A DNA stretch of 37,430 nucleotides. It comes from a virus. This document shows positions 94 to 34,775 of this stretch, one piece after another (position 1 is the stretch's first letter; every line of letters begins with the position of its first letter). Where the stretch lies: IMG/VR virus record IMGVR_UViG_3300017613_000256, positions 1 to 37,430 of that record; one strand, written 5' to 3'. Below the pieces are notes generated by a model. That model saw only the letters and a list, made by a program, of their open reading frames with translations. It made no database searches and was not told the DNA's origin. The position numbers and the translations under genes are program-made.

Positions 94-507
94 TTATCCT
101 CCAATCAGTTCAAAATGCACAAGATCCTGAAAGTCCTGATCTGTGACAGGTTCTGTGTCCATATCCCAATTGCCACCCCATCTCATGCCAACACCTAATT
201 TTTTCGCACAGGTGAGGATGATCCCTGCAAGCACACAGCAATGAGCCTTGTTGTAACTTATATGGTCTTTGATCCAAGGCACAGCATCAAATGCTTCTGC
301 TGGAATTTTGTTGTGCTTACCATCAGGAAACTTGACTCTGGATTTTGGTGGGTCTGCATTATAGTATTCATTTTGAAGCTCCTTTCCCCTGTGACCCTCT
401 GTGATGGAGAAATCCATCAAGCCCATTGCAAGTGCTTCCCTTGCCACCAACTGCAAATCAAAGTGAACTGTGCTCAAATTGAACTCTGATGTGTTCCCAA
501 ATTTCAT
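94..507 (-). CDS. Endolysin, M15-type peptidase (D-Ala-D-Ala carboxypeptidase / L-Ala-D-Glu endopeptidase-like)
   Basis: A 137-residue protein with the layout of single-domain zinc peptidases of the M15/VanY group. An ITEGHR segment near residue 34-39 is followed by a GKH...AFD motif at about 63-74, which holds the first zinc His and Asp. The C-terminal half has RWGG.WD (about 109-115) and a terminal DLVHFEL in which the His is the last metal ligand. The length is typical of phage endolysins such as T5 Lys. It would cut peptide crosslinks of peptidoglycan. The neighbours are a holin-like gene on one side and a membrane/coiled-coil gene on the other, forming a lysis cassette. The start is preceded by AAGGAATAATCA. 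Confidence 0.8.
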   Translation of the reverse strand: MKFGNTSEFNLSTVHFDLQLVAREALAMGLMDFSITEGHRGKELQNEYYNADPPKSRVKFPDGKHNKIPAEAFDAVPWIKDHISYNKAHCCVLAGIILTCAKKLGVGMRWGGNWDMDTEPVTDQDFQDLVHFELIGG

Positions 508-510
508 TGA

Positions 511-831
511 TTATTCCTTGTGGTTTTTTTTCATGAATTGCTCAACACTCCCAATGAATCTTGAAATGTTCTTGAGCTCAATATTCAACTCTTTCTTGTC
601 TGCTTCTCTCCTTTCTTGAGATTCCTTGGCATTTGTTTCAACTGTGGCTTGCAATCCATTTAGAGTTTTCTTGACAATATCAATCTTTTTGCAAATAACA
701 GGAGGGCACTCTGTCTGGTGTTTGTCAAAATCCTTTTTGGAAACAAATCTGATCTTGTTTATCTGTGTTAGGATTCCTCCCACAATTCCTCCAACTGCCA
801 ATGTAATATATAGGATTGTCTTTGCATCCAA
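511..831 (-). CDS. Membrane-anchored coiled-coil protein, possible lysis accessory
   Basis: A 106-residue protein. Residues about 5-24 are a Gly/Ile/Leu-rich helix suited to membrane insertion (ILYITLAVGGIVGGIL), followed by a basic charged patch. The rest is a long charged helix rich in Lys, Glu and Asn with heptad-like spacing, consistent with a coiled coil. A pair of Cys residues lies near 42-47 (CPPVIC). The topology resembles i-spanin-like or accessory holin proteins, and the gene abuts the endolysin. No family was recognised with certainty. The start follows a GGTGG site about 10 bases upstream. Confidence 0.55.
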   Translation of the reverse strand: MDAKTILYITLAVGGIVGGILTQINKIRFVSKKDFDKHQTECPPVICKKIDIVKKTLNGLQATVETNAKESQERREADKKELNIELKNISRFIGSVEQFMKKNHKE

Positions 832-842
832 GATTTATCCAC

Positions 843-1079
843 CTATGATTTCAACACAACCTTGCTTGCTTCTGCATCAACCAACACCCTTATGTCAGTT
901 AGCTTGGTTTTTTCTTCTGCCCATTTTGTTAGTTGTGCATCAATGTTTTGGATTTTTAAATCAATTTCATCCAAAGTGTAAAAATCAGATTTTGTTGTGT
1001 CCTCCTCTCCCTTGACCTTGACCTCCTCTTTGGTGGAAACTTCATTGTCCTTTGTGACTGCTGAATATATAATTGCCAT
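843..1079 (-). CDS. Small charged protein of unknown function
   Basis: The preferred start gives 78 residues beginning MAIIYSAV; a GGAGAAAC site lies just before it. A longer reading from 1100 would overlap the upstream gene and lacks a better ribosome site. The N-terminal half is rich in Glu, Lys and Thr (KEEVKVKGEEDTTK), and the C-terminal half looks helical. The gene lies between a tail-appendage gene and the lysis cassette, where small tail or lysis accessory proteins are common. No family recognised. Confidence 0.6.
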   Translation of the reverse strand: MAIIYSAVTKDNEVSTKEEVKVKGEEDTTKSDFYTLDEIDLKIQNIDAQLTKWAEEKTKLTDIRVLVDAEASKVVLKS

Positions 1080-1089
1080 TGTTTCTCCT

Positions 1090-1635
1090 TTACCATGCAT
1101 CTGGTGTTATTACCAATGGGTTGTCAATCCCAAGATAAAATCTGCTTTCGCCATTTGTGCCACCACTTCTGTAAGTCCAAAGCTCAAGCACATCACCAAT
1201 GACAACAACAATGTCCTCAAGATGATATTCCCAAGAGGATGAGGTGCAGACCCTTTCTGTTCCCACAGGAGAGCCATTTTTATAAACTTTCCCATAGACA
1301 GTTGTGCCAACACTTCCCCTCCTTAAACCAATTCTTGTCTGGATAGTTCCATTTCTTGAACAGGCAGGAAATTCATCAACCTTTGCATATGATGTGTGTG
1401 TAAAACCTATGGTTTCAAGATAAACCAAGCTCTCACTTTCTTGTCTGACACCAGAATCATAATCAGCGAGCTTTGCCCTTGTCACCACATCATCATCCAG
1501 AGCCGCTGTTTGAATGTCAGGAGCACCAGAATCACCATTTGCAAGTGCTGTGATATTATCCCTCAAATTCTGCATTTGTGCACTTGTCAAGACTGTGCCA
1601 TATCCAAATGCAGTTGATAAATCCACCCATGCCAT
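1090..1635 (-). CDS. Tail appendage / minor structural protein with beta-rich C-terminus
   Basis: A 181-residue protein. The first 40 residues (MAWVDLSTAFGYGTVLTSAQ followed by NLRDNITAL) match a pattern common at the N-terminus of phage tail-appendage proteins, where it may anchor the protein. A short linker with TAALDDDVVTRAKLADYDSG follows. The C-terminal 100 residues alternate Gly, Thr, Tyr, Val and Asn like a beta-sandwich (KVYKNGSPVGTE; TYRSGGTNGES). It is probably exposed on the virion and may bind the host surface. It lies after the distal tail genes and before the lysis genes, as receptor-binding or fibre genes often do. It is short for a complete fibre. Confidence 0.55.
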   Translation of the reverse strand: MAWVDLSTAFGYGTVLTSAQMQNLRDNITALANGDSGAPDIQTAALDDDVVTRAKLADYDSGVRQESESLVYLETIGFTHTSYAKVDEFPACSRNGTIQTRIGLRRGSVGTTVYGKVYKNGSPVGTERVCTSSSWEYHLEDIVVVIGDVLELWTYRSGGTNGESRFYLGIDNPLVITPDAW

Positions 1636-1636
1636 T

Positions 1637-1837
1637 TTAATTCACCTTGATTTCACTATTTAATAGTTTTTTAGTAATTGCCAAATGTTCAGGGCAAAGA
1701 TGAGCCCTGTCCTCTCCTGTTTCATCATTCATGATCCCAACAATGTGACCCCAACCCACAAAGCCTGTGTTTGGGTGGCTTTCTGTCTTGGTTTTTGTGC
1801 ACCCTTTCACACTACAAATGATTGTTTGAAGTATCAT
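1637..1837 (-). CDS. Small Cys/His protein of unknown function
   Basis: 66 residues. Cys8 and Cys13 (CSVKGC) together with CPEH near residue 48 could bind one zinc, and GWGHIVGI is central. The ATG overlaps the stop of the upstream tail gene (ATGA), and GGGAGG sits at a good distance, so translation is probably coupled. A small zinc-binding accessory of the tail tip or a regulator are both possible; no family was recognised. Confidence 0.55.
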   Translation of the reverse strand: MILQTIICSVKGCTKTKTESHPNTGFVGWGHIVGIMNDETGEDRAHLCPEHLAITKKLLNSEIKVN

Positions 1838-3018
1838 GTCAAAACCTCCCCTGCTGAACTATCCAATTCTGTCACATCAAGAATGAATGGAGTTAAGGTT
1901 GCCGCCCCATCAACCACAAACTGCATTTGATCTGTGTTCATGTTGTATTCATATTCTGTGATTGCCCATGCATCAACAGAGGTGATGCCATAAAACGAAT
2001 CAACCAGCCTGACAGTTTCACCCAACTGCATGTAAATGCCAACCAGAGGGATCTTCAATGTGAACAGTTTGGGTGGAGAGCTTAAAAGAGAAACTTTCCT
2101 TTGAGCAAGGTTCAGGGCACTTCCAGAAGTGTTGAACCAGATGCTTTCATCCTCAATGGTTTCCTCATTCAGCCCAAATGTGTTGACTGATGTGGTGTTT
2201 TGAGCAAAGACTGTTTTCTGCCAATAGTCACTTTCTTGTGCATAGTCAAAGCCAACACTCTGCCTGTTCACCAGCCTTTGCGATTCAACATCAATGGTGA
2301 GGTCAAGGATTTCATCATCAACAGAAAGCACAATGTCAAATGATGATGCATTGGTGAACCTCTTGAAGTTCACCTTGCCATCACCCTCAACCCAAATGGC
2401 TGAATCTGTCATTTTGGACAGGCTTGTGAGGGCTTCTGTGACTTTCTGCCCATCATAATATGCATCACAGAGAATGTTATCAACAGAGAAGATTCCAGCC
2501 CACTCCAAGAAACTGTCATAATCAATATCAGGGTTGGTGGCACTATCTGTTGAGAGCTCTCCATAACAGGTGCAGAGAGTCCATGCAATGTCAGAGGGAA
2601 GCTCATTTGTAAACTCAACAGGCACATCAGACTCACCCACTTTCTTTTGTGTAAACTCCAAGAGTCTGTCTTTCATCAGGGTGATGCACTCCTTTCTTGG
2701 ATAGTTCACATCTTTCAAAAACCCTGTGAAAACTGTGATGAGCTCATCACCACTTGTGGGGTGGGTGAAACCAATCTCAAGTGTGCAGGTATTGACAAGG
2801 GTGTATGTGTTTTCAAAGAACAGGTTGAGATCACCATCTGCATTTGCAAGACTCACCCTTGGATTGACTGCCTTTATCTCATAGGCTGTCCTCTTGAATG
2901 CCGGCCACTTGGAAACCCTGTCACTATAATCAGATGTGCCAATCTTGAACACTCTTTTGGGTTCAGACCCTACCTGCCTTGTTTGATCCACAAACCAGCT
3001 TGTCACATCATGTGGCAT
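1834..3018 (-). CDS. Tail tip / baseplate hub-like protein
   Basis: A 394-residue protein placed two genes downstream of the tape measure, the usual position of the distal-tail and hub proteins of siphophages. It is beta-rich throughout, without long helices or transmembrane segments. A segment near 105-130 (FLKDVNYPRKECITL..) followed by a domain containing ALTSLSKMTDSAIWVEGDGKV resembles phage hub and DUF2163/tail-assembly proteins, in which a LysM-like or hub fold precedes a small beta domain. No peptidase motif is visible. The start overlaps the preceding stop as TAATG, which indicates translational coupling. Confidence 0.55.
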   Translation of the reverse strand: MPHDVTSWFVDQTRQVGSEPKRVFKIGTSDYSDRVSKWPAFKRTAYEIKAVNPRVSLANADGDLNLFFENTYTLVNTCTLEIGFTHPTSGDELITVFTGFLKDVNYPRKECITLMKDRLLEFTQKKVGESDVPVEFTNELPSDIAWTLCTCYGELSTDSATNPDIDYDSFLEWAGIFSVDNILCDAYYDGQKVTEALTSLSKMTDSAIWVEGDGKVNFKRFTNASSFDIVLSVDDEILDLTIDVESQRLVNRQSVGFDYAQESDYWQKTVFAQNTTSVNTFGLNEETIEDESIWFNTSGSALNLAQRKVSLLSSPPKLFTLKIPLVGIYMQLGETVRLVDSFYGITSVDAWAITEYEYNMNTDQMQFVVDGAATLTPFILDVTELDSSAGEVLT

Positions 3019-3383
3019 TAGTAACCCTCCAAGAGAACCTTGCCCTTATACAGATCTGCATAGGGCTTTGCAAAGCTCTGGAATGGAGTGTCTTTGTTCA
3101 TCAGCACCACACTATGCACCTCTGTTGCTGTGTCTGATGTTATGAGAAACAAGAGCTCTGTGTTTGAATCCCACCATGAATTGACAAGGGAAGCATCAGA
3201 AGCAGGGAGATAGTTCACAGTAAATGAAAATGATTTGTAATCTCCCCACTTATACAGAAACAATTTACCTGCCTTGGTTCTGTGCTCTGTCCTCAACTGC
3301 TTCTCTCCACCTTTGTAATTATATTCAGGCTTGAGTGTCACAGCATCAACACTTGATATGCCCAACTCAAATTTGAGTGCCAT
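3018..3383 (-). CDS. Minor tail protein (distal-tail position)
   Basis: A 121-residue beta-rich protein directly downstream of the tape measure gene, where minor tail proteins of the lambda M type or distal tail proteins lie. Features include FSFTVNYLPASDASLVNSWWDSNTE.. in the middle, a pattern seen in short tail-completion proteins, and a final YKGKVLLEGY. It probably bridges the tail tube end and the hub. No catalytic motif is visible. Assignment rests mainly on gene order. Confidence 0.5.
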   Translation of the reverse strand: MALKFELGISSVDAVTLKPEYNYKGGEKQLRTEHRTKAGKLFLYKWGDYKSFSFTVNYLPASDASLVNSWWDSNTELLFLITSDTATEVHSVVLMNKDTPFQSFAKPYADLYKGKVLLEGY

Positions 3384-3386
3384 TTT

Positions 3387-5639
3387 TTAGACCTTTATCC
3401 CTCCTGCTTCCAAATCTCTCAAGGCTGGTATTATTCGATCCTCTGTCAGATCCCTCCAATCCTCCCTGTCCATTCTTTTGATCTCATCCATTGAAACAGG
3501 AACTTGAAAGAAAAAATTTTCAACTGTGATTGCACCAGCACCACCCTCACCTGCACCTGCACCTGCCAAGAACTCAACCAGATCCTTGTTTTGTTGAGCA
3601 GACACAACCCTTTCTCCCTTGTCCAGCAGAAAGGTTTGCTCCTTGGGCACATAGTCCAGACCACTATGAGCAACTGTGAGCCCTGTCACCTTTGCTGATC
3701 TGACTGCTCCATAAGCGATCACAGCAGCGGCAGCGGCCGCTCCCAAAGCCGGTCCAACAATTGGAATTGATGCAAGGGCTTTATAGGCATTTATAGCACC
3801 TGTTTGTGTTGAGGATACTATTTCAGGGATAGCCGCTGCCTTGAGTATTCCAAACCCTTTTATTGATCCTGCTTTTGCAACAGCATTTAAGCCATCCTGT
3901 TGTGTCTTTTCATTCTTGAGGGCATCCTTATCAACCTTGGCTTGCAGTTCTGATCTTCTCTTGAGATATACTTCTGTGAGTTGCAGTTTTGCTTCCTCAT
4001 TGCCCTCATATTTTGCAAGCTCTGTTTCATACCACAGGGTGAGTTTTTCAGAGTCAGTCAGAAAGTGCTCATCATGCAAGACCCCTAATGCTTCCAAGTT
4101 TTCTGCTGTTTTTTCAATGTTGGCATTGTCAAAAGGATAAATCCCTGTGGGTTCTTCCCCTGTTGCTTGTTCTTTGATTCCAGCCAGAGCATTGGTGATT
4201 GCTTCCTTGGTTGCATCCACACTCTCAATGGTTGTCTGGTCACCTGCCAACTTTGCAAGTTCCTCTTGGGCTGTCTGGCTCATCAGGGTGAGGGCATCTA
4301 TATTTTCACCAATGGATGCTGTGAAATTATTTGCCATCTCAATATCTTTGTCAAACATGCCACCAATATTGACCACCTCAAGAAATTGAGTATATTTCTC
4401 CACCAGAAACTGCATGCCCTCCCACAATGAAATGGAAAGGTCTGCAAAGCTCATCTTGAGGATCTGCCAAGTGCTCTGCAAAACCAGAAATGACCTGTTC
4501 AAAAATGGGAGTGCCCTTGATCCCACATCTAATATTGCACTCATGCCACTTGCAAACGATTTGGCAAATCCAACAATTGCCACCTTGTTTTGCTCAAGAA
4601 AGCCAATGATGCTTTTCAATGCCCTTGATGCGATTGGTGCAAGCTCCATGCCAATCAGGGTCAACAGGTTGCCCAAGGAGTTCTTTGCAGTTCCCCAAAG
4701 AGCAACCAATGTGTCAGACCAATCAGCAAATGCTTTCTCTGTCATGCCCACACCAGAAGTCATTGCAAGGGTTTTCTGTGTCAATGTTTCAAAGTTATTC
4801 GCAGACAGGGCTGAAACACCAATCAATGCCCTCTGGTTGGCAAACAGTTCTGCCATTGCTTCTGCTGATCCACCTGTGCTGTCCTTTAAGCCCTTGAGGG
4901 TTGCACCCAACCCAATCTGCTGGATTGCCGCCTGTGCACTCTCAAAACCCATATCCCTGATCACATCTTTCATTGCTTCTGTGGGTTTCATCAGGCTTAT
5001 CATAATGGCTCTGTATTGTGTGGCGGCTTCCTCTGTGTTTCCTGCTGTTTGGGTGATGAGGGCAAGGGATGCACCCATCTCCTCACTTGCAACATCAAGA
5101 TCAGCAGACACTTTGGCAAGACCACCAATCACAGGGATCATCTCTCTGAAACTCGTTTGACCCTCTTTTTCAATGGCAAACAGCAAGTCTGATGCTTCTG
5201 TGACATTTTCGATCTCATCACCAAAACCTGCCATCACCTTTGTCAAACCCTTGATAACCTCTGATTGATCCACATGGGCGGCCTTGGCGGCTTTTGCAGA
5301 AACTGTCAGGGTTTCAATTGCTTCTGCTGGATCTGTCACTCCTGCTGATATGACTTGGTAATATCCTTTCACAAGCTCTGTGGAAGTTCCAAGGACAGGT
5401 GGCAACTCCTGCATTTTCTTGTGCACAGAGTCCATGCTTTCAGTTGTGACCTTGCCCAAGTCTGTGAGTGCTTCCTCATATTGCCCAAAGGAGTGGACAG
5501 CCTTTGCACCAAGAACACCAAATGCTGTTGCAGTTGCTGTGACAAGTTTGGTGATGCTTGGCAACTTGCTTGTGAGCTTATCGAAAGCACCAGAGAATTT
5601 ATCTGTTGCTCCAACAATTATGCTTATTTTTTCAGCCAT
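3387..5639 (-). CDS. Tail tape measure protein (TP901-type)
   Basis: A 750-residue protein, long and mainly helical. Residues about 40-330 carry the TP901 tape-measure core pattern: ALTDLGKVT, GTSTELVKGYYQVISAGV, then SAKAAKAAHVD and VMAGFGDEIENV, followed by FREMIPVIGGLAKVSADL and EEAATQYRAIMISLMKP. Later parts have coiled-coil segments and a hydrophobic Ala-rich stretch near 640-665 that could insert in membranes during DNA entry. It sets tail length and is packed in the tube lumen. Its start overlaps the end of the GT reading frame by 8 bases, as expected for a chaperone-then-tape-measure order. The length suggests a tail of roughly 110 nm if about 1.5 Angstrom per residue holds. Confidence 0.9.
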   Translation of the reverse strand: MAEKISIIVGATDKFSGAFDKLTSKLPSITKLVTATATAFGVLGAKAVHSFGQYEEALTDLGKVTTESMDSVHKKMQELPPVLGTSTELVKGYYQVISAGVTDPAEAIETLTVSAKAAKAAHVDQSEVIKGLTKVMAGFGDEIENVTEASDLLFAIEKEGQTSFREMIPVIGGLAKVSADLDVASEEMGASLALITQTAGNTEEAATQYRAIMISLMKPTEAMKDVIRDMGFESAQAAIQQIGLGATLKGLKDSTGGSAEAMAELFANQRALIGVSALSANNFETLTQKTLAMTSGVGMTEKAFADWSDTLVALWGTAKNSLGNLLTLIGMELAPIASRALKSIIGFLEQNKVAIVGFAKSFASGMSAILDVGSRALPFLNRSFLVLQSTWQILKMSFADLSISLWEGMQFLVEKYTQFLEVVNIGGMFDKDIEMANNFTASIGENIDALTLMSQTAQEELAKLAGDQTTIESVDATKEAITNALAGIKEQATGEEPTGIYPFDNANIEKTAENLEALGVLHDEHFLTDSEKLTLWYETELAKYEGNEEAKLQLTEVYLKRRSELQAKVDKDALKNEKTQQDGLNAVAKAGSIKGFGILKAAAIPEIVSSTQTGAINAYKALASIPIVGPALGAAAAAAVIAYGAVRSAKVTGLTVAHSGLDYVPKEQTFLLDKGERVVSAQQNKDLVEFLAGAGAGEGGAGAITVENFFFQVPVSMDEIKRMDREDWRDLTEDRIIPALRDLEAGGIKV

Positions 5640-10730: not shown

Positions 10731-11373
10731 CCCTCCACCTTTCAAATTGTGCCCTCTCCCTTGCTGTCACTTCAATGTCCAGATAAGGCAGGTCAAAGGC
10801 TTCTGCTTCTGCATCCAATTCAACCCATGACCCATCTCTGATATTCCAATCTCTTTTCAATGTTGGAACATGCTTCTGGTTGTAAAAATCAATGAGCTCA
10901 AAAAACACCCTCAATGTCTGGATTGCAGAGAGCTCATTTTCCTTTGGGCAGAGGGTCATGTTGTATGGTGATCTTAACCTGTCAGGAAATATCTGCCTTT
11001 CAATCTTCAATGACTTCCAAGAGAAATGCTCCCTGTCTTTCTTTGGCAAAAGCTCTGCTCCCAAACCCAACTCAACCATCTTAAAATCATACCAGCTTAT
11101 ACCTTTGCCAATTGCCAGACCCCTTTCCCAAATGTAATCAGTTATATTAATTTTTTTCAGATAGTAATTATCTTTTGCAAGCCCATAAAGATTCTTTGCT
11201 TCATGGAGAATCTTTTTGAATATGTCAAGATCACCATCTTTCAAATGTTTGCTTGCAAGATATTTGTCATAAAAAATTATGGCTTGGGCTTGAAAATCAT
11301 CATTTGAAATGATGCCTGTTTTGTATTCTTTCCACTTATTATCCAGAGCCTTTGCATATTCAGCCTTGTTCAT
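10705..11373 (-). CDS. Unknown 222-residue protein of the ACP/reductase cassette
   Basis: Starts with ATG after GGAGATACAGG and overlaps the reductase stop by 4 bases. The N-terminal half is charged and helical (AKALDNKWKEYKTG; FKKILHEAKNLYGLAKDNYYLKK). The C-terminal half has a TLCPKENELSAIQTLRVFFELIDFYN segment and an acidic end. No nucleotide-binding, membrane or catalytic motif was identified. It could be a scaffold or an enzyme of a family not recognised here. Its fixed place between reductase and ACP suggests a shared pathway. Confidence 0.55.
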   Translation of the reverse strand: MNKAEYAKALDNKWKEYKTGIISNDDFQAQAIIFYDKYLASKHLKDGDLDIFKKILHEAKNLYGLAKDNYYLKKINITDYIWERGLAIGKGISWYDFKMVELGLGAELLPKKDREHFSWKSLKIERQIFPDRLRSPYNMTLCPKENELSAIQTLRVFFELIDFYNQKHVPTLKRDWNIRDGSWVELDAEAEAFDLPYLDIEVTARERAQFERWRDGTGGLGE

Positions 11374-12044
11374 CCTGTATCTCCACCAAGACCACCATCA
11401 ATCCTGATAATATCACCTGTGATATATAGGGATTTATCAGATGCCAGAAAATAAACCATTTCTGCAACATCAGATGGCTTTCCTGCCTTGTTCATGGGCA
11501 CAAAGCACTTGATCCTTTCTTGGCTTGCTGTCAGATCCAGCTTGTCCTTTGTCATGTCAGTTTCTATCAGACCCGGGGCAACAGCATTGACTCTTATATT
11601 AAGCCTTGCAAGTTCTCTTGAGAGTGCCCTTGTAAAGCCCAACAGCCCTGCTTTTGATGCACAATAGTTGGCTTGACCCACCATGCCCATGATGGCGGCT
11701 GTTGATGAAATATTGATGATGCTCCCTCCTGCTTTCATCATGGAGAACAGGACAGCCTTTGTCATGTTGAAAGCACCATTGAGATTAATGTCAATGACAC
11801 TATGCCATTCTGCTGGTGTCATTAATAAAAATGGCTTGTTTGCTGTCACTCCTGCATTGTTCACCAAGCAATTGATTGCTCCATATTTTTCAATTGTTTC
11901 CTTTGCAACACTCTTGCACATCTCAAAATCTCTCACATCTTCTTTGCTTGATGTGATCCTGACATTCCAGCCATTGCTTTTGAATGTTTCAGCACATGCT
12001 TTCCCTATTCCCCTGTTGCCACCTGTAATGATCACAGTTTTCAA
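11370..12044 (-). CDS. Short-chain dehydrogenase/reductase, FabG-like
   Basis: A 224-residue classical SDR. The N-terminal TGGNRGIG (residues about 7-14) is the dinucleotide-binding turn, NNAG is at about 64-67, the ISS motif near 116 supplies the catalytic Ser region, and YCASK at about 129-133 holds the Tyr-x-x-x-Lys pair. PGLIETDM and the final TGDIIRIDGG are typical of 3-oxoacyl-ACP reductases. It would reduce a keto group with NADPH; with the ACP two genes downstream an ACP-bound substrate is plausible. A sugar or other alcohol substrate cannot be excluded. It overlaps both neighbours by 4 bases. At 224 residues it is slightly shorter than bacterial FabG. Confidence 0.85.
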   Translation of the reverse strand: MKTVIITGGNRGIGKACAETFKSNGWNVRITSSKEDVRDFEMCKSVAKETIEKYGAINCLVNNAGVTANKPFLLMTPAEWHSVIDINLNGAFNMTKAVLFSMMKAGGSIINISSTAAIMGMVGQANYCASKAGLLGFTRALSRELARLNIRVNAVAPGLIETDMTKDKLDLTASQERIKCFVPMNKAGKPSDVAEMVYFLASDKSLYITGDIIRIDGGLGGDTG

Positions 12045-14881
12045 AAGTATTTCTCTCCATAAATCCTTGTGGTTTCTTCTGTCAGGTGATCCATCAAGCC
12101 CTTTATGTCCTCCCTGCTTGCAAACATGCCCACCATTGGCTGTTTTGCAATTGAGCTCTTGTGCCCATTGGTCTGTGCTTTCAAGTCAACTGAAAACTCA
12201 ATGCCACCTCCAAGCACATTGACTGCTTCTGAATAATAGTGCAATGACTCTGAAATGAATCTTGAGTTGCCCTCCTCAAGCAATTCCCTCCACAGATTTA
12301 TAATGGTTTGGGCATACTTCTGCACATCAACTGTGATCAGTCCACCATTTGATTCAAGGGTGTATTTCACAAGATGAGCCAGATCCCTCAACCAGAGAAA
12401 CCTGCCAAGTTTCCTGTCAGGGTGTTCTTTCCTGTCTTTCTGCATGAGTGGAAAGTTCCTCTCAAACCTTTTTCTCCTGATGGTTTCTGTTGCATATCCT
12501 GTGTGCATGATGGCAATGTCCTGAATGATGATGATCTTTCCACACCCCTCATTGTATGTCGTTTCAGGGTGCTCATGAATCATGCCATAAAACTTGACTC
12601 CCCTGTGATTTCTGAACAGCCTGACAGGATAATCTGTTTTGAATAATGCAGGTGGGTCAACCCCATAATGGTGCTGTTTGACAGCATATCCATTATAGCA
12701 GTTGGATCTTAAATATTTTGGGAGGTTCTCAACCTGCTCAAGTGTTTCATCAGAATCAATCCACAGAATCCAATCCATCTTGGCTTTTGCAATGGTGTAA
12801 TTCCTTGCAACAGCAAACCCAACTTTGAGAGGTGATGGGATGCTGAATGTGTGAGCTCCAAATTGCTCACACACACTCTTGGTTTCATCTGTGGTGGTTT
12901 CATCAATTCCCACAATGATTTCATCAGCAACCTTGCCAACTCCCTTGAGTGTTTTCCCAATTGTTAGTTCTGAATCTTTCGCAATGATGCACACAGAAAG
13001 GGTTTCCTGTGGTGCTTGAGATCTCAACTTTCTTTCATAGTCAATTTGATCAATGTCCTTTTCAGAGTTTTTGAATGTCACAAAGAAGTGACCAAGACCA
13101 TCCCTGTGAGGTAATGCCAAGAGCTTGTATTCTTTTTGACTGCCAAACAGGTCAGAGAGATCCTGCCTTTCAAGGTGGTGAATGTGAGCCCTCCAACCCT
13201 TGTGCTCATCATATCCAATTGCTTCCCAAGCACCATAAGGAGTTGTTATGAGCATGACACCATCAGGTGCAAGATACTCTTTCAACTGCCTGACAAGATC
13301 TGCTGGATCTGGAACATGCTCAAGCACCTCTGCAATGATGATCATGTCAACTTTTTGGGTGAGCTCAAACTCTCCAACTGTGCTGTGAATAAACAGGTTG
13401 TCAACCAACTCATGATCTTCTTTATATTTCAAAGCCCATTCTTTTGCTGTCTGAATGTTGCTCTCATCAATATCAACCCCAAAATATCTTATATCAGGAA
13501 ATCGTTTCATCAGGTTCATGACATAATGACCATGAGCACAACCATAATCAAGGATTGAGTTGGGCTTGAACCCATCAACAAACAAGGCAGTCTGTTCAAA
13601 TCTTGGCTGTCCTGTCAGATCCTCCTCACCATAAATGACACCCCTGTTTTTTTCATATTCGTAATATTTTTGATAATGCTCCTCATAAGCACCATCATAC
13701 ATGAAGTGATAGTTTTTCCAAAGTTGCTCCTTGGCTTGCTCCTTGATGCAATAAACATCAGAGAAGTGCTCAAGGTGCTTAAACAGCCTTGTTTGATCCT
13801 GTGACTTCTCCTTGAGGATCTTTTTAAAAAGCCCATCCCATTGAAGTGCCACACTCTCCCATGACTGATTCTTTTTGAGGGCTTTGTGGTGCAGGTTCTG
13901 CCATTTGGAGGGATCTGCAAGGATCTGTTTCACAGTCTTGGTGAACAGTTTTTTGTCCACCTCACCATCTTTCAATGGCAACAGGACAGAGCCAGAATCC
14001 TTGCATGTTTCTGGAAGTGCCGCCTGTTCAAATGAAATGAATGGTGTGCCACCAGCATTTGCTTCCAGCACCATGATGCAACTTGTGTCCTCAAAGGTGG
14101 TGGGATAAACATATAACTCACACCTTGCCAGCAGTTCATAAAGTTTATGTTTGCCCAATGAGCCCATGTTGGTCACATTTGGGAGTTCTTCACACCTTGC
14201 CCACAGGTAATCATAAAAGTCTTTCATGTGCCCTGTGGTGTTCTGGTAACTGCACACATATAAATGGCAGTCTGGCAGTTCCTCCATGATGCTGTTTTCA
14301 CCCACCAACTCATTCAGACCCCTCTCTGGTCTGCCAGCAAAGCACAGAGATCCTTTCTCCCTTGAATTCTTGTCAATGTCATTGAAAGCATCATAGTCAA
14401 CACCATTCCATGTTGAAACAATGAAATCTTTGGGCACATCATAAATGTCTGCAACCTGATTCTTGTGAAACTCTGAAACTGTCAAGATCCTGTCAATGTT
14501 GATCAGGTGGGTCTGGACAATCTTTGAGTTTCTCAACAATGCAAGGTCATGCAACCACCACAGTTTCACCTTGGCATTTACAGGGTTGAGAAAGCCCATT
14601 GGATGCCTTTGAATAATCACCACATCATAAGGCACTTGCATCACAAAATGAAATGCATCACCCAAGAGATATTGCTTGGTTGCTTTGCCATGATATTCAT
14701 ATAAAACACCATCCCATGAACCCCTGTCCTTTGAGTTGGTAAACACTATGACACTATGACCCAACTTGGAAAGCTCTCTTGCCACATAATATGCTGATGA
14801 TTCAGATCCTCCAAGGCTTGCACCATTAGGGATTGACTCACCATTGAAAGGCATGCCTGTTGCATAAATAGCAATGTGCAT
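12041..14881 (-). CDS. Three-domain glycan enzyme: GT4 glycosyltransferase, class I methyltransferase, GT2 glycosyltransferase
   Basis: 946 residues. Domain 1 (about 1-360) is a GT4/GT-B glycosyltransferase: GGSESSAYYVARELSKLGH near 28, TVSEFHKNQV near 137, FAGRPERGL near 177, and an E-x7-E-like FEDTSCIMVLEANAGGTP near 265. Domain 2 (about 400-600) is a SAM methyltransferase with ILDYGCAHGHYV near 441 and IIAEVLEHVPDP near 515. Domain 3 (about 633-900) is a GT2/GT-A transferase with SVCIIAKDSELTIGKTL, GIDETTTDET, and the DxD metal motif in WIDSDET near 710. Together they could build and methylate a short glycan. The gene sits beside capsid genes, so virion or host-surface glycans are both possible targets. 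A GGGGAGAAAAT site precedes the ATG. Confidence 0.85.
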   Translation of the reverse strand: MHIAIYATGMPFNGESIPNGASLGGSESSAYYVARELSKLGHSVIVFTNSKDRGSWDGVLYEYHGKATKQYLLGDAFHFVMQVPYDVVIIQRHPMGFLNPVNAKVKLWWLHDLALLRNSKIVQTHLINIDRILTVSEFHKNQVADIYDVPKDFIVSTWNGVDYDAFNDIDKNSREKGSLCFAGRPERGLNELVGENSIMEELPDCHLYVCSYQNTTGHMKDFYDYLWARCEELPNVTNMGSLGKHKLYELLARCELYVYPTTFEDTSCIMVLEANAGGTPFISFEQAALPETCKDSGSVLLPLKDGEVDKKLFTKTVKQILADPSKWQNLHHKALKKNQSWESVALQWDGLFKKILKEKSQDQTRLFKHLEHFSDVYCIKEQAKEQLWKNYHFMYDGAYEEHYQKYYEYEKNRGVIYGEEDLTGQPRFEQTALFVDGFKPNSILDYGCAHGHYVMNLMKRFPDIRYFGVDIDESNIQTAKEWALKYKEDHELVDNLFIHSTVGEFELTQKVDMIIIAEVLEHVPDPADLVRQLKEYLAPDGVMLITTPYGAWEAIGYDEHKGWRAHIHHLERQDLSDLFGSQKEYKLLALPHRDGLGHFFVTFKNSEKDIDQIDYERKLRSQAPQETLSVCIIAKDSELTIGKTLKGVGKVADEIIVGIDETTTDETKSVCEQFGAHTFSIPSPLKVGFAVARNYTIAKAKMDWILWIDSDETLEQVENLPKYLRSNCYNGYAVKQHHYGVDPPALFKTDYPVRLFRNHRGVKFYGMIHEHPETTYNEGCGKIIIIQDIAIMHTGYATETIRRKRFERNFPLMQKDRKEHPDRKLGRFLWLRDLAHLVKYTLESNGGLITVDVQKYAQTIINLWRELLEEGNSRFISESLHYYSEAVNVLGGGIEFSVDLKAQTNGHKSSIAKQPMVGMFASREDIKGLMDHLTEETTRIYGEKYF

Positions 14882-17825: not shown

Positions 17826-18533
17826 TCAAGCAACCTTGATCAACCTGCCAACCTCTGATATGTGGTGACAGGTTTCACACAGTTGAAATGGTTGCACCTG
17901 CTTCTGTGTGAGATCCTCTGTGACATGGGAGAAAACACCTGTTGCAAATGCATCAATGCAACAGTTGGTCACATCTCCATTTGACATGACCATCACCTGC
18001 CCTTTGTTAAGCCAAGGACACTCCATGCCTTTTGTTTTGTAATAATCAGGGTGAAACCAATCCACCTGCCCTGCCCAATTGTTTGGGCTGGTCATAAAGT
18101 CCATTGAAATCTGTCCATCAATTCCAACCTGTCTGAAATACCTGATTGTCTGTGCAACAGATCTGGCATTGTGACCTGTTATGTCAATTGATGAGATCCC
18201 TGCTTTCTTTAGTTTGACAGCAAGCTCAAATGTCATGTTGTTGCCATTTGTGTTCAGGTGGAGCTTTTGCCTGATTGGTAAATGCTTTCTTGCATATTCA
18301 ACCATCTCTGCAAGGTCTGGATGCAATGTGGGCTCACCCACACCAAAGAGATTCAACTCCCTCTGTGTGCCCTGCTTGCTGAAATGGATCACCCACTTGA
18401 TTGATTCATGAAATGTTTTCCAATCCATCCAGCCTGTTTCCCTGTGCTTGCCCTGTATTGGAGCAGGGCAATATTCGCACCTGTTGTCACAGATGGATGA
18501 GGTTTCAATTGTGTTGATTGTGGCTATTCTCAT
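17826..18533 (-). CDS. Radical SAM enzyme with SPASM-like C-terminus (copy 1)
   Basis: 235 residues. The CDNRCEYC motif at residues 15-22 is CxxxCxxC, the cluster-binding signature of radical SAM enzymes. NLFGVGEPTLHPDL near 63-76 is the GGE-like SAM motif, and LNTNGNNM follows. The C-terminus has a SPASM-like Cys set: MECPW, GDVTNCCIDAF and LCETCHH. Such proteins bind an auxiliary Fe-S cluster and modify peptides or sugars. At 235 residues it is a compact version. A second related copy lies 529 bases upstream. The ATG lies inside the last codons of the HTH gene (29-base overlap). Substrate unknown. Confidence 0.85.
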   Translation of the reverse strand: MRIATINTIETSSICDNRCEYCPAPIQGKHRETGWMDWKTFHESIKWVIHFSKQGTQRELNLFGVGEPTLHPDLAEMVEYARKHLPIRQKLHLNTNGNNMTFELAVKLKKAGISSIDITGHNARSVAQTIRYFRQVGIDGQISMDFMTSPNNWAGQVDWFHPDYYKTKGMECPWLNKGQVMVMSNGDVTNCCIDAFATGVFSHVTEDLTQKQVQPFQLCETCHHISEVGRLIKVA

Positions 18534-19062
18534 TTAATGTGAATCCTTTTTCTCTTGCTTTTTTATAAACAAATTTCTCTATTTTCGCAAATAATTCAAA
18601 GGTTGGATAAAACCCTCTTTCAAGTTGACTATATCTTGCTTGTGAAATGCCCATTTTTTCGCTCACATCAACCTGCCTTAAACCCAACACTACACGAAAC
18701 ACTTTAAGAAAGTTTCCTTTAAGTTTTCCCACCGATGCCTCATAGATAAGAGAATCAATGCCCTCTTGATAAGTGAGGGGTCTGTTTGATGTTAAAATAT
18801 CTATCCAATCAAAAGGTGGCTTTTTGATTTTTTTTATTCCTAAAGCTTTTAACCAAGCAAGACCATCCATTTTTTGTTTTACTTGTTTTACTTTTGGAAT
18901 TGGCTTTGATATTGAATTGAATCGCTGATAATCTTGCTCACAAGAAAAAATATAATCAATGCCATAGGTTTTTTCGTCTATCATTTCGTCATTAAGGTAT
19001 GAAGATGCAACATCATCTGAAAAATAATTATTGTTTGTTTTCATAAACTCAAAAACATCCAT
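18505..19062 (-). CDS. HTH (XRE/Cro-like) protein inserted between the two radical SAM genes
   Basis: 185 residues from MDVFEFMKTNNN; the ATG overlaps the upstream stop. The C-terminal third carries a helix-turn-helix: LKVFRVVLGLRQVDVSEKMG then ISQARYSQLERGFYPTFEL, like transcriptional regulators of the XRE family. The N-terminal part (DYIFSCEQDYQRFNSI; KPPFDWIDIL) is unfamiliar. It is more A/T-rich than its neighbours and has 7 CpG in 558 bases against about 2-3 per kb elsewhere, so it looks recently acquired. It might control the cassette or be an antitoxin-like remnant; no toxin gene is adjacent. Confidence 0.75.
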   Translation of the reverse strand: MDVFEFMKTNNNYFSDDVASSYLNDEMIDEKTYGIDYIFSCEQDYQRFNSISKPIPKVKQVKQKMDGLAWLKALGIKKIKKPPFDWIDILTSNRPLTYQEGIDSLIYEASVGKLKGNFLKVFRVVLGLRQVDVSEKMGISQARYSQLERGFYPTFELFAKIEKFVYKKAREKGFTLNENSHNQHN

Positions 19063-19781
19063 TAGGCAACCTCCCTCCCATTCAGGATGTATTCTGGAAT
19101 TGTTTGATGGCATGTTTCACAAAGCTCATAGGGCTTGATCTCTCTTTTAAGCAGATCATCATCAAACACATGACCAAACACACCCAAATTCCTGTAATCA
19201 TAACAGCAGGGAGTGACATTGCCCTCACTCTGAATATAACCTCTGCCATCAATAAGTGGGTCACATTGAATTTTCAGTTTCACATCAATGCTGTTTTCTG
19301 GCTCTAACTGTCCAGCCCAATTGTGAGAGTACAGGACAGCACCAAGATTGACAACACCCTTGAGCCCTGCATTGTGCATAATATAGGCAGACCTCCTCAC
19401 ATGGAATGGTGAATGGATGCTCAAGTCAATCTGGTCAATGCCTGAATCTTTCAGATCCTTTGCAAGCCCTCTGGTCATGTTGACTCCATTGGTGGAGAAG
19501 CAGACTCTGCGATCATCAACAACAGCCCTGACTCTTTTTATCCTTTCGATCAGATCAGGATCAAGGCAACTCTCTCCATTGCCATTAAGATTGATCTCCT
19601 GCTGTGTTCCCCTGTCACAGAGGATTTTCAGCCAATGCAATGACCTTTCAAACACAGAGTTTGTCATTATCCCTGCATCTCTATCTGGATGCTTCACCAA
19701 AAGCCTGTTGATGCAATATTTACATGCAAGATTGCAGACAGATGAAAGCTCAATTGTGGTTATGGTTTTAAGGGTTATCAT
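19062..19781 (-). CDS. Radical SAM enzyme with SPASM-like C-terminus (copy 2)
   Basis: 239 residues with CNLACKYC at residues 16-23 as the radical SAM cluster motif, NLNGNGESCLDPDL near 64-77, FSTNGVNM near 94-101, and a C-terminal SPASM-like set: IQCDP, GNVTPCCYDYRN and LCETCHQT. It shares the framework of the downstream copy (same Cys positions, the same -WAGQ- element near residue 155 and the same LCETCH end), so the two are paralogues. Together they may act in turn or as a pair on one substrate. It overlaps the zinc-ribbon gene by 4 bases. Confidence 0.85.
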   Translation of the reverse strand: MITLKTITTIELSSVCNLACKYCINRLLVKHPDRDAGIMTNSVFERSLHWLKILCDRGTQQEINLNGNGESCLDPDLIERIKRVRAVVDDRRVCFSTNGVNMTRGLAKDLKDSGIDQIDLSIHSPFHVRRSAYIMHNAGLKGVVNLGAVLYSHNWAGQLEPENSIDVKLKIQCDPLIDGRGYIQSEGNVTPCCYDYRNLGVFGHVFDDDLLKREIKPYELCETCHQTIPEYILNGREVA

Positions 19782-31207: not shown

Positions 31208-31410
31208 TCTTTCCCCAAGTTTTTTATCAAAAAATCCATTTCACATGCAACAAGCAATGCCTGAATGGTCACATCTTTTTTCTGTAAATCCATTTTGTGA
31301 TTTTCCTGTCTTATAAATCCAACTGTCACAGCAGAGATGTTCAGCAGGAACACCACCCACAAAACAAACAGGACAACAAAATCAATTATATCCCTGACCT
31401 TGGTTTTCAT
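31204..31410 (-). CDS. Single-span membrane protein (68 residues)
   Basis: The start at 31410 is fixed by an ATGA overlap with the methyltransferase stop. After KTKVRD a helix of about 25 hydrophobic residues (IDFVVLFVLWVVFLLNISA) is followed by a charged soluble tail (RQENHKMDLQKKDVT) and a second amphipathic helix. The size and coupling to the next mini membrane gene suggest that they act together. Spanin-like proteins have similar size, but no lipobox or matching partner is evident. Confidence 0.6.
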   Translation of the reverse strand: MKTKVRDIIDFVVLFVLWVVFLLNISAVTVGFIRQENHKMDLQKKDVTIQALLVACEMDFLIKNLGKE

Positions 31411-32234
31411 TTTCTTTTCCATAGGGTTGGCTTGTTGTTCCAAGCATTTGTCTTGATCCTCATATAGTTATTATCCAGCAACACCTGATGAAATCGTTTT
31501 GTCATTTGTTTCTGGTGATAGGTTGAAACCCAACCAGCCTGATCAAAGAGTCTGTTTTTGTACCTATACCACTCAAAGTGCCCAACAGAATATGTGTTGA
31601 AAGAGTTTGCAATATAGAAATATGTTGGGTTCAGGCTGTTGATAATATCCTGCAAGTGATCAGTTGCAAATTGTATGTGCTCAAAATATTCAGAAGCAAA
31701 CACCAGATCAATGTCTTGCCTGATATGAGAAATGTCAGGAACAAGTTTGAAGTCAAACTGTGCACTCATTACAGCACAGAAAATATATTGCTTTGTGCCC
31801 TCAAGGTTTGTGGCAAACACCTTTGCCTTGTTAAAGATCTGCTTGAGGGTTGCTGTTGTATATCCAAGACCACAACCCAAATCCAAGATGCTCTTTGTGT
31901 CCATAAGGAGATCATAAATTCTTGCATTTTCATTCAGGGATTTTGGGTGGATGAGTGTTCTTAAATATCCTCTGCTGAACAGCACCCAACACACCCACAA
32001 GTCTGTGAAATAATATTCATCATCATAGATGGAATAGTCAGGGTTGTTCTGCTCAATCGAATCATACCACCTGACTTCCAGATCCACTTGATATTTTGAC
32101 ACACTCTTTTTGTCATAGTGAGCCCTTGCATCCTTGATCAACTGCCTTGCCTTATCAATGTCAATTGGATTGATTTCACTATATAACAACAGGAACTCCT
32201 CAAGTTGCTCACTTGGTCTTTTATTGCAGATCAT
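31407..32234 (-). CDS. Class I SAM-dependent methyltransferase
   Basis: 275 residues. KSILDLGCGLGYTTATLKQI near 116-135 is the SAM-binding motif I; VFATNLEG near 140 is the motif II strand; DLVFASEYFEHI near 176 and LNPTYFYIANSF near 202 are later motifs. The N-terminal 100 residues are helical and unfamiliar. No DPPY or PC motif is seen, which argues against a standard DNA N6- or C5-methyltransferase, so a sugar or small-molecule acceptor is more likely. It is coupled (ATGA) to the glycosyltransferase gene upstream, so it may methylate the sugar that enzyme adds. Confidence 0.75.
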   Translation of the reverse strand: MICNKRPSEQLEEFLLLYSEINPIDIDKARQLIKDARAHYDKKSVSKYQVDLEVRWYDSIEQNNPDYSIYDDEYYFTDLWVCWVLFSRGYLRTLIHPKSLNENARIYDLLMDTKSILDLGCGLGYTTATLKQIFNKAKVFATNLEGTKQYIFCAVMSAQFDFKLVPDISHIRQDIDLVFASEYFEHIQFATDHLQDIINSLNPTYFYIANSFNTYSVGHFEWYRYKNRLFDQAGWVSTYHQKQMTKRFHQVLLDNNYMRIKTNAWNNKPTLWKRK

Positions 32235-33109
32235 ATCACCTCCACCAGCTTCATCCCATAGTTGTTCACACCCTTTGGAATGACCAGATCCTTTTTTTTG
32301 ATTGGCTTGTTTCTTGCAAAGGGCTTATAATTGACATGATGATGCCACCTGCCAAACTTCCAAACCACCCTTGAAACATCTGGATGCATATCAAGCAGGA
32401 TCTGTGACTTTTTAAGTGTGCCCTCCTTGTCATAAAATTCTTGAGTGTTCCCTCCTTTCATTGTCTGTGTGGTTGCTTTCTCCTGAACGAAAGCATTGAA
32501 TTGAATTGTGCACCAGCCATCTTTCAACACCCTCAAAGAGAGATCTGTGTCCTCATTATATCTCCCTCTCCACCTGTAAGGAATATCATTCCTGATCAGC
32601 AAGCAGGAATAAATCCTTGTGTTGAAAATGAATGGTGGGATCTTGGTTTTTGCGATTGCAAAGAAATCATAATTGAGCCCTGTGATTGCCACATTCTCAT
32701 ATCTGTTTGTGAAGTCCTCTGCAATCTTGAAGATTGTTCCTGATGTAACCCTGTAATGATAATTTTTATTGAGTCTGCTGAAAGCAAAGATATTATCATC
32801 CAGCACCCAATGCCATTCAACACCCAACTCAATTGAATGATCCCAACAAAAGTTCCTTGCCGGACCCGGACCTGTGCTGTGATCCTCATCAATCTTTGTC
32901 ACAACATTATAATCTTTTTTATATCTCTCTGGCAGAATCAGGATCTTAATTGCACAACCTGCTGGATCAATCACATCTGCATATTTGTCATATTCCTGCT
33001 TTTCAACCACAAGATAATAAGGCACTTGCATTTTCTCAAATGCATTGCTTGTCAGTCTGGTTTCCCACCTCCCCTTTGAAACAATATAAACAGGGCTTTC
33101 AGGGTTCAT
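32231..33109 (-). CDS. TET-associated glycosyltransferase-like protein (TAGT family)
   Basis: 292 residues from MNPESPVYIVSKGRW; an AAGGAATACATTG site supports this ATG rather than the TTG just before it. The pattern VYIVSKGRWETRLTSNAFEKM, then GPGPARNFCWDHSIE, WHWVLDDNIFAFSRLN, YNEDTDLSLRVLKDGWCTIQFNAF (in pieces), TMKGGNTQEFY and WKFGRWHHHV matches the GT-A-type family described next to TET/JBP dioxygenases in phages (also in GREB1). DDN and NED are the likely nucleotide-sugar/metal and catalytic acids. Those enzymes are predicted to glycosylate hydroxymethylated bases in phage DNA. No TET or C5-methyltransferase lies in this window, so the substrate is inferred. Confidence 0.7.
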   Translation of the reverse strand: MNPESPVYIVSKGRWETRLTSNAFEKMQVPYYLVVEKQEYDKYADVIDPAGCAIKILILPERYKKDYNVVTKIDEDHSTGPGPARNFCWDHSIELGVEWHWVLDDNIFAFSRLNKNYHYRVTSGTIFKIAEDFTNRYENVAITGLNYDFFAIAKTKIPPFIFNTRIYSCLLIRNDIPYRWRGRYNEDTDLSLRVLKDGWCTIQFNAFVQEKATTQTMKGGNTQEFYDKEGTLKKSQILLDMHPDVSRVVWKFGRWHHHVNYKPFARNKPIKKKDLVIPKGVNNYGMKLVEVI

Positions 33110-33353
33110 CAATGTATTCCTTGTCAGTCCTATATCTAAACTTCATCTCTGGAAACCAAAGGCTCACCTGCCTTGGTGCAATCCTCTGGTTGATCAGTTC
33201 TGCAAAGGCATCCATGTCCTCTTTGTTCCTGAAATGCACAATAATCCTCCTGTCTGATGTGAGATCTTCTTGGTCAAACTCTGGCATGCCCTCCCACTCA
33301 TCTGACCACCATTCCTTGTTTTCAAACAGAGGGATCTGCTTCTTTTCTGTCAT
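33099..33353 (-). CDS. Small protein often found with phage DNA-modification genes, unknown function
   Basis: 84 residues. It opens MTEKKQIPLFENKEWWSDEW followed by GMPEFDQEDL, then an alpha/beta segment RRIIVHFRNKEDMDAFAELINQ and a final PRQVSLWFPEMKFRYR. Proteins of this pattern ('WW..EW.GMPEF' and 'WFPE') recur in environmental phages, here beside the glycosyltransferase. The strand-helix part with FRNKEDMDAFAEL resembles a ferredoxin-like half. It overlaps neighbours on both sides (11 and 32 bases). Function not established. Confidence 0.6.
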   Translation of the reverse strand: MTEKKQIPLFENKEWWSDEWEGMPEFDQEDLTSDRRIIVHFRNKEDMDAFAELINQRIAPRQVSLWFPEMKFRYRTDKEYIDEP

Positions 33354-33939
33354 GCTCTTTATCCTCTATCAACTTTAAATCATCTTTTAAGATTATATCT
33401 TTCCCAACACCCTCAATCCTGATTGGCTCTGGTATAAACCCATCATATTTCCCATCATTATTAAACTCAATTAACCCTGCCATGTGTCCACTCATTGACA
33501 TATTTTGTCTTTTACATGATGCATAATACCTTGCAAAATCCTTTCTAAACCACTTCTCATCCTCCTCCAATAATTCACAGAGCTTTATCCAGCCACCATA
33601 ATATGTTTGGATAACTGCAACTGTGATTGGATCATCAAACAGGATTGAATTATAAACACCAACTTTTTTAATTGCCCTCACAACCTCATTAGCTTGAAGC
33701 TCTGCAACATCTTCAAGTTTCCCTGCACCACCTGTCATTGCTTCAATCCATTCAACAACCTTTGGGAAAAATTTGGCTGTCATAATCAACTTATTTGCAC
33801 CAGATTCAATCTCCTCAATTGAATAATCCTTGAGCCCATTCCAATATATCTCCAACAAAAACTCTGGCAATTCCTTGTCAAAATATCCAGCCAACCCTTG
33901 AATACAAATGCCAAACCTTTCCTCTTTATCTTCTTTCAT
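33322..33939 (-). CDS. Helicase-loader-type replication protein (DUF6475-like)
   Basis: 205 residues, mainly helical. EFLLEIYWNGLKDYSIEEIES is followed by MTAKFFPKVVEWIEAMTGG, a pattern of phage proteins that load the replicative helicase. EVVRAIKKVGVYNSILFDDPITVAVIQTYYGGW (in pieces) and WFRKDFARYYASCKRQ follow. The acidic C-terminus (LKDDLKLIEDKEHDRK) is variable. It sits directly downstream of the initiator-like gene, with a 4-base overlap and a GAGGAGAAAA site, giving the usual initiator-loader order of lambda O/P-like modules. Confidence 0.65.
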   Translation of the reverse strand: MKEDKEERFGICIQGLAGYFDKELPEFLLEIYWNGLKDYSIEEIESGANKLIMTAKFFPKVVEWIEAMTGGAGKLEDVAELQANEVVRAIKKVGVYNSILFDDPITVAVIQTYYGGWIKLCELLEEDEKWFRKDFARYYASCKRQNMSMSGHMAGLIEFNNDGKYDGFIPEPIRIEGVGKDIILKDDLKLIEDKEHDRKEADPSV

Positions 33940-34775
33940 TTTTCTCCTCTTTTCTTTTTTTCTAACCAGCTTTGTGTTGCTATTATGCCTTTCATGTGTT
34001 TATCAGACACTCTTTTTGGCTTATATTCTTTTTCAGTTTTTTTCATTTTCAGAAACAGTTGGTCAAATTGCTTTCTTAATTTTGTGGTTGATAAAATATT
34101 GTTCTGCCAAAACTCATCCTCTTGACACCACTTAATGACTTTCTCAATCTCTAATGGATCTCTGTTGTCAATCCTGATCATCAAGTCAACCACCTTTGAC
34201 CATAAATCAAAATTTGGCTTTTTGTGTTTTGGGTTTCTTTTTAAGATTAATTCAAAAAGTAATTTTGATAATTGATGAGGGAGAGAGTCAACTATATCTT
34301 TATCTTTTTCTTTATCTGTATTTACATCTGTATCTGTATCTGTATCTGTATGTGTTAACTTGGTTAACTCAAGTTTACTATTGTTTACATCATGTTTACA
34401 AGGTTGCTTTTCCTGCTTTCTTCTATCCCTCATATATTCTCTCATATATTTTCTGCGATCCTCTTGAGATGCCATATCTCTATACTTTTGATAATTTACT
34501 ATTTGCCATCCCCAAGGTCTTGATTCTTCAATTCTGACAATTCTTTTTCCATCCTCCCCTGCTGTCCTTGTGTAAGGATCTTCACTCTCTAATGCTTCAA
34601 TTCCCTTTTTAAGAATTTTTAATGGGATGCTTGTTCTTGCAGATAGGGCTTGAGGGGTTATGTCAACAAATCCCTCTTGATCTGCCAGCACTATCATTTG
34701 TTGAAATGTCACAATTGCCTCCCATTGCCCATATAAACTCCCATCATACATCAATTCAAATATTTTCCCATACAT
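33936..34775 (-). CDS. Replication initiator-like protein
   Basis: 279 residues. The N-terminal 95 residues have a winged-helix pattern (GKIFELMYDGSLYGQWEAIV; ITPQALSARTSIPLKILKKG; GWQIVNYQKYRD), as in phage replisome organisers. A basic stretch (RRKYMREYMRDRRKQ) leads to a low-complexity linker with TDTDTDTD, coded by a six-base tandem repeat. The C-terminal domain, LWSKVVDLMIRIDNRDPLEI and STTKLRKQFDQLFLKM, is the helical tail shared by O-type initiators. It probably opens an origin and recruits the loader next door. GGAGGAGTTGAG precedes the ATG. Lambda O carries its origin inside the gene; iterons were not identified here. Confidence 0.7.
   Translation of the reverse strand: MYGKIFELMYDGSLYGQWEAIVTFQQMIVLADQEGFVDITPQALSARTSIPLKILKKGIEALESEDPYTRTAGEDGKRIVRIEESRPWGWQIVNYQKYRDMASQEDRRKYMREYMRDRRKQEKQPCKHDVNNSKLELTKLTHTDTDTDTDVNTDKEKDKDIVDSLPHQLSKLLFELILKRNPKHKKPNFDLWSKVVDLMIRIDNRDPLEIEKVIKWCQEDEFWQNNILSTTKLRKQFDQLFLKMKKTEKEYKPKRVSDKHMKGIIATQSWLEKKKRGEK
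34325..34348 (-). repeat. Six-base tandem repeat coding the Thr-Asp linker
   Basis: Four consecutive copies of YATCTG on the plus strand (CATCTG then three TATCTG), coding Thr-Asp repeats in the linker of the initiator. The unit is six bases, so copy-number change preserves the frame. Confidence 0.7.

Follow-up and report, generated by a model that had tools for sequence, protein, structure and literature searches.

What is modified by a viral gene cassette that pairs a TET-associated glycosyltransferase (TAGT) with a SAM-dependent methyltransferase and a small conserved protein? An earlier sequence-only reading had proposed that the three genes glycosylate oxidized 5-methylcytosine in phage DNA. 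The stretch of DNA that we analyzed (the window) spans an entire IMG/VR record (37,430 bases) in which no end repeats were seen, so further genes could be missing from it, and the absence of a gene from the window alone is weak evidence. The small protein, of 84 amino acids, carries what we call here the GMPEF domain, after its consensus.

Layout of the cassette and its two enzymes

All three open reading frames are present where they had been delineated (Table 1). Their description as overlapping and coupled is borne out by an overlap of 11 nucleotides between the stop of the 84-amino-acid gene and the ATG of the TAGT gene and one of 4 nucleotides where the end of TAGT meets the beginning of the methyltransferase gene. 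Calling the surroundings a replication operon was fair, given the DnaD-like helicase loader and the DUF6475-type gene upstream. We place the DUF6475-type gene outside the cassette because a related stretch stands without the cassette in L160, the closest terminase relative (68%), which has stretches in common with both the DnaD-like and the DUF6475-type proteins of the window; TAGT, GMPEF, and the cassette methyltransferase are absent from its 11.1 kb examined.

Table 1. Features of the window discussed in the text
Feature	Positions	Strand	Remarks
SAM-dependent methyltransferase	31407-32234	minus	275 aa; DLGCGLG motif, generic Methyltransf_23 match
TAGT glycosyltransferase	32231-33112 (TTG) or 32231-33109 (ATG)	minus	293 aa from TTG, 292 aa from ATG at 33109; PF20691, phrog_842; WVLDDN and NEDTDLSLR catalytic-type motifs
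84-aa GMPEF domain protein, stand-alone form	33099-33353	minus	Open reading frame; 5' of TAGT in relatives
DUF6475-type protein, neighbor outside cassette	33322-33939	minus	PF20081, E 8.6e-10
DnaD-like helicase loader/replication protein, context gene	33936-34775	minus	phrog_2514, E 2.3e-29
Glycosyltransferase-methyltransferase-glycosyltransferase fusion, adjoining an SDR reductase	11370-14881	minus	946 aa (fusion); among head/tail genes
Two radical SAM proteins, HTH protein between	17826-18533 and 19062-19781	minus	Among structural genes

The earlier assignment of the glycosyltransferase to the TAGT family holds: the motifs cited for it do occur in the protein, and matches well beyond chance came from a Pfam search (PF20691, E value of 1.9e-43, 149.2 bits against a cut-off of 27.5) and a PHROGs search (phrog_842, E value of 4.1e-50), the latter family being annotated as beta-glucosyl-HMC-alpha-glucosyltransferase. 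Residues D105, D106, N107, N186, and D188 are invariant in all 35 aligned TAGT sequences, and the structure model (pLDDT 88.4) matches GT-A enzymes with a probability of 1.00, so that a GT-A fold is found together with an acidic metal/donor motif (the invariant DDN and N-x-D). The nearest solved structures are GnTI and the collagen galactosyltransferase COLGALT1, both protein- or glycan-acting enzymes. By the criterion set in the earlier reading, this counts somewhat against DNA as the substrate, tempered by query TM-scores of at most 0.48 and by the general likeness of GT-A folds; we know of no solved DNA-acting GT-A enzyme with which to compare the model. A sequence search of the PDB with the TAGT profile returned nothing credible. 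Scanning with the window TAGT recovered 80 viral loci at 40 to 67% identity, and the named Aeromonas, Vibrio, Tenacibaculum, and Pectobacterium phages lie at ∼49 to 55%, while those of Nonlabens and Porphyromonas reach only ∼24%. The T6 and TET-linked TAGTs could not be positioned in a tree, where their branches came to 7 to 10 changes per column and the median branch to 0.31; for these sequences we claim distance only and no branching order.

The second enzyme had been read as a SAM methyltransferase without a DNA-type motif, and this proved correct: its sole Pfam matches are to generic SAM families and fall short of the cut-offs (Methyltransf_23, E value of 9e-6), and neither DPPY nor PCQ was found in its 275 amino acids, which carry a class I SAM motif and, in the alignment, a later conserved motif, FASEYFEH. 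It had no match in 50,697 phage records, and its own viral scan gave one relative, L082, a locus that also encodes an FkbM-type methyltransferase. The gene occurs in seven loci besides the window (three of them, L023, L024, and L025, near copies), all seven with GMPEF and TAGT, and is absent from all 47 bacterial-genome loci. Its position varies: after TAGT in the window and L020, between the two genes in L023 to L025, and before them in L069, L073, and L082. Weak profile matches in two terminase-relative loci, L162 (E value of 6e-6) and L169 (E value of 6e-4), were taken for generic methyltransferases, and a profile search gave a weak similarity to small-molecule N-methyltransferases that is too generic to tell the substrate. 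We propose that this methyltransferase is an optional cassette member that would tailor the sugar or the base.

Other sugar-related genes were seen as well. Sugar epimerases lie near TAGT in nine loci (ORF clustering and Pfam), and the glycosyltransferase fusion and SDR reductase of the window (Table 1) are perhaps a second sugar cassette, for virion proteins. The two radical SAM proteins are a separate observation among the structural genes.

Pairing of the GMPEF protein with TAGT

Clustering of the open reading frames around TAGT in 81 loci (the 80 from the TAGT scan and the window) placed the 84-amino-acid protein's cluster in 50 of them, on the same strand and always 5', and 35 other nonidentical GMPEF sequences were found beside TAGT. 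An alignment of 32 GMPEF sequences (A1, window first) has roughly the consensus W..EWxGMPEFxQ...VxFRNxED...FAxLIGQ...KTKSxWxP. For the window protein no Pfam family, ParB_N included, passed its cut-off; among the 32 aligned members three PHROGs families gave one weak match each; and a scan that relies on exact peptide patterns returned none. A profile sequence search found no credible relative, and the structure model (pTM 0.46) matched no fold in the PDB. The literature searched contains no recognizable description of the small protein, and ParB is mentioned in neither of the two papers there that speak of a “TET-associated glycosyltransferase”.

The association of the two proteins was seen from either side. 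A scan with GMPEF alone gave at least 600 stretches, at least 539 of them confirmed, and TAGT was present in 76 of the 77 new loci drawn from the best 80 of these. A six-frame search of 96 dereplicated loci found a same-strand GMPEF adjoining TAGT in 93, with E values no weaker than 1.8e-6, and the remaining 3 are contig edges; GMPEF is 5' of TAGT in all of the 93 except L066, where the best GMPEF copy belongs to a second TAGT. Among loci found by TAGT alone, GMPEF is present in 48 of 51 viral ones, some of which supplied sequences to the GMPEF model, and the 3 without it lie at contig edges. It is also present in 44 of 47 such loci from bacterial genomes, a set that is not dereplicated and of which none is in the model. 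The three bacterial exceptions are L237, a contig edge, L230, where GMPEF is absent, and L238, where it is absent and TAGT is partial. GMPEF distances also track TAGT distances, with an r of 0.454 against 0.171 for the best of 999 shuffles. The conserved small protein noticed earlier is thus a near-universal TAGT partner, and the window almost certainly encodes an enzyme of the TAGT family together with a small partner that hardly ever fails to accompany it. The TAGT family was already known; the GMPEF protein is the discovery here.

The pair lies within 2.5 kb in 142 of the 149 loci examined. GMPEF stands alone, as in the window, in 74 of these, is N-terminally extended (>100 amino acids) in 42, and shares one frame with TAGT in 26. 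The fused form is found in phages Aeh1 (NP_943971), POP12, and PTm1 and in Vibrio phages 1.124.O and 1.076.O, and henriette 12B8 has two separate genes. Of the 42 N-extended proteins, 29 agree with a crude ParB motif; several of the other 13 look ParB-like by eye, and L048, L196, and L207 do not. Pfam detected ParB_N in five of eight long forms submitted, one of the five (L061) below the cut-off. GMPEF therefore occurs as the C terminus of ParB-like proteins in many relatives, suggesting a probable role in linking the catalytic subunit to DNA. Because the two are paired almost without exception, have overlapping genes, and are fused in nature, we favor a two-subunit reading, in which GMPEF and TAGT likely form one enzyme and would bind each other physically. 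Immediately after the fused TAGT, Aeh1 (L180:6888-7100) and POP12 (L182:6831-7028) each encode another small protein resembling GMPEF.

Genomic context, acceptor routes, and base composition

In a census of 446 neighboring proteins in three sets, each represented by its 25 most frequent families, terminases, DnaB helicase, DNA methyltransferases, and replication genes were among the commonest families around TAGT, and ParB_N was found in 4 of 146 and 8 of 150 neighbor proteins. The 4.1-kb viral contig L151 (positions 226-3979) holds the run TET, ADDT (amino acid:DNA transferase), P-loop kinase (PF18751, just under the cut-off), GMPEF, and TAGT, which is a DNA hypermodification operon. The pair is near terminase genes in Erwinia sp. 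OLFS4, Pantoea stewartii, Chryseobacterium daeguense, and Acidobacteriaceae KBS 96, where it is therefore probably in prophages; in C. daeguense DSM 19388 the GMPEF protein is of the N-terminally extended kind. According to passages of PMC13216743 and PMC13390438, the T6 TAGT acts on phage DNA. The family, the ParB fusion, the terminase and replication neighbors, and the L151 operon all suggest, from sequence, that DNA would be the substrate. Among further neighbors of the pair are a phosphoadenosine phosphosulfate reductase-type gene in Rhodovulum (L215:6292-7014), a radical SAM gene in Desulfosporosinus (L200:8837-9814), and, close to a fused pair, a 575-amino-acid protein that gives its locus another phrog_842 match (L214:5749-7473).

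Genes that could supply an acceptor base are rare in this clade, many of whose tested records are fragments. Tet_JBP has no match in the window and is present in 2 of 144 clade records (0/50, 0/16, 2/45, and 0/33), the P12024L positive control being recovered with an E value of 2.8e-29; a C5-methyltransferase is likewise absent from the window and occurs in 2 of 85 clade records (0/50 and 2/35). The thymidylate-synthase fold (dCMP hydroxymethylase), also absent from the window, is present in 5 of 46 clade records, all of them phages of at least 107 kb, and the PF11440 alpha-glucosyltransferase in none of 23, window included (T6 was positive). With few exceptions, none of these acceptor routes was found in the small carriers.

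The sequence-only reading had also taken a CpG signal as a sign of modified cytosine. The depletion itself is real, with a CpG odds ratio of 0.057 and CpA/TpG of 1.56 uniformly along the record (TpA is 0.39), but it is not common to most TAGT carriers: the lowest CpG value among 81 other loci compared is 0.22, and values below 0.2 occur in 0 of 80 TAGT-query loci and in 4 of 77 GMPEF-query loci (L083, L134, L157, and L149). Values run from 0.30 to 1.37 in 18 terminase relatives, with L160 at 0.77, and Marinitoga phage MPV1, whose terminase is related, stands at 0.58. Given that the window is an outlier among TAGT carriers and terminase relatives alike, we rejected CpG loss as a signal of TAGT modification. 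The window still avoids GGCC (4 sites seen versus 74 expected), which would be odd if its cytosines were shielded by sugar and argues against full cytosine shielding. One terminase relative, L172, has 0 GGCC sites versus 37 expected at a CpG ratio of 1.37, so GGCC avoidance is separate from CpG loss.

Alternative readings, proposed mechanism, and known systems

The chain proposed at first, in which TAGT glycosylates 5-hydroxymethylcytosine derived from TET-oxidized 5-methylcytosine and the TET and C5-methyltransferase genes are outside the window or in the host, now appears quite improbable. The record may be a fragment, CpG loss with an excess of TpG/CpA is the expected trace of methylated-CpG deamination, and TET is near the pair in two relatives, in the same operon in L151 and beside it in L219; however, 142 of 144 clade records lack TET, all but 2 of 85 lack the C5-methyltransferase, and the CpG depletion is not shared by TAGT carriers. 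On the Winogradskyella MAG contig L219 (positions 815-3409), the fused GMPEF-TAGT is convergent to a TET gene and a second TAGT, and this TET adjoins that second TAGT rather than the pair. Since the TAGT in the TET operon of Nonlabens phage P12024L is distant (24% identity) and GMPEF is missing from that locus, and since the L219 TET stands by a second TAGT, one cannot predict TET in this clade from the name “TET-associated”. The earlier notion of a DNA hypermodification cassette survives for the TAGT, the non-DNA-type methyltransferase, and the small protein, which are probably concerned with hypermodification, but not for the TET/5-methylcytosine route.

Two other readings concern the acceptor. 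That the pair glycosylates something other than DNA, be it a virion protein of the capsid or tail or a molecule on the host surface, is unlikely, though it would agree with the protein- and glycan-acting enzymes among the best solved folds, with the separate glycosyltransferase-methyltransferase fusion and SDR reductase among the structural genes of the window, and with the lack of a DNA acceptor route in most small carriers; against it stand the action of the T6 family member on DNA, reported in the passages cited above, and the ParB-type fusion, the terminase and replication neighbors, and the L151 operon, which point to DNA. Addition of a second sugar to an already glycosylated base would resemble the T6 TAGT, which adds glucose to glucosyl-hydroxymethylcytosine according to passages of PMC13216743, and two TAGTs do occur in L219, where the pair is beside a second one, and in Kuja and some other loci; we regard it as very improbable, as the PF11440 enzyme is missing from all 23 clade records searched, window included, and detected in T6.

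We consider it somewhat probable that GMPEF and TAGT are the two subunits of a glycosyltransferase whose substrate is phage DNA and that methyltransferases serve as optional tailoring enzymes. The TAGT subunit, with its GT-A fold, would move a sugar from a nucleotide-sugar donor, and the GMPEF subunit would hold or aim the enzyme, probably by coupling the catalytic subunit to DNA. The acceptor would most likely be a base that carries a hydroxyl, in phage DNA during replication or after packaging, and the sugar may protect that DNA from host nucleases. In a minority of cassettes, the methyltransferase may then methylate the sugar or the modified base.

Known systems resemble this proposed two-subunit arrangement in part. 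The T6 beta-glucosyl-HMC-alpha-glucosyltransferase (ggt) is, by published accounts, likewise a PF20691 protein, and it is also phage-encoded, with a GT-A fold and the phrog_842 annotation, but it has 261 amino acids, adjoins dCMP hydroxymethylase, and is too distant from the window TAGT for placement in a tree; the GMPEF model finds nothing in the first 40 kb of T6, the part searched. P12024L resembles the window in having TAGT and then a methyltransferase in a replication-side operon, and differs by the presence of TET, the low TAGT identity and lack of GMPEF noted above, and a methyltransferase with the DNA-type DPPY motif. A scan with its TAGT gave three loci including that phage, a number that does not allow statistics for the TET branch. 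Porphyromonas phage005a has a ParB-like gene directly before TAGT and a terminase after it, but its TAGT is 23.8% identical and the GMPEF model finds nothing in the locus. For the CmoX/CmoY carboxymethylcytosine system, passages of PMC12783734 describe phage DNA hypermodification contigs that often encode a ParBc protein; the window differs in having no C5-methyltransferase-type CmoX and a sugar transferase in place of the amide ligase.

Passages of PMC13216743 report that 288 of 753 phage genomes have TAGT homologs without an alpha- or beta-glucosyltransferase, and suggest novel transferases. At least one large branch of such TAGT carriers has in common a near-obligate small partner, which also forms the tail of ParB-like proteins. 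We put forward, as a tentative possibility, that GMPEF and TAGT make up a DNA glycosyltransferase of two subunits, hitherto undescribed though widespread and often guided by ParB, which in small phages that lack every known route to a hydroxylated base may use an acceptor chemistry not yet known or act directly on an ordinary base. For annotation, the finding advises caution: “TET-associated” does not imply TET.
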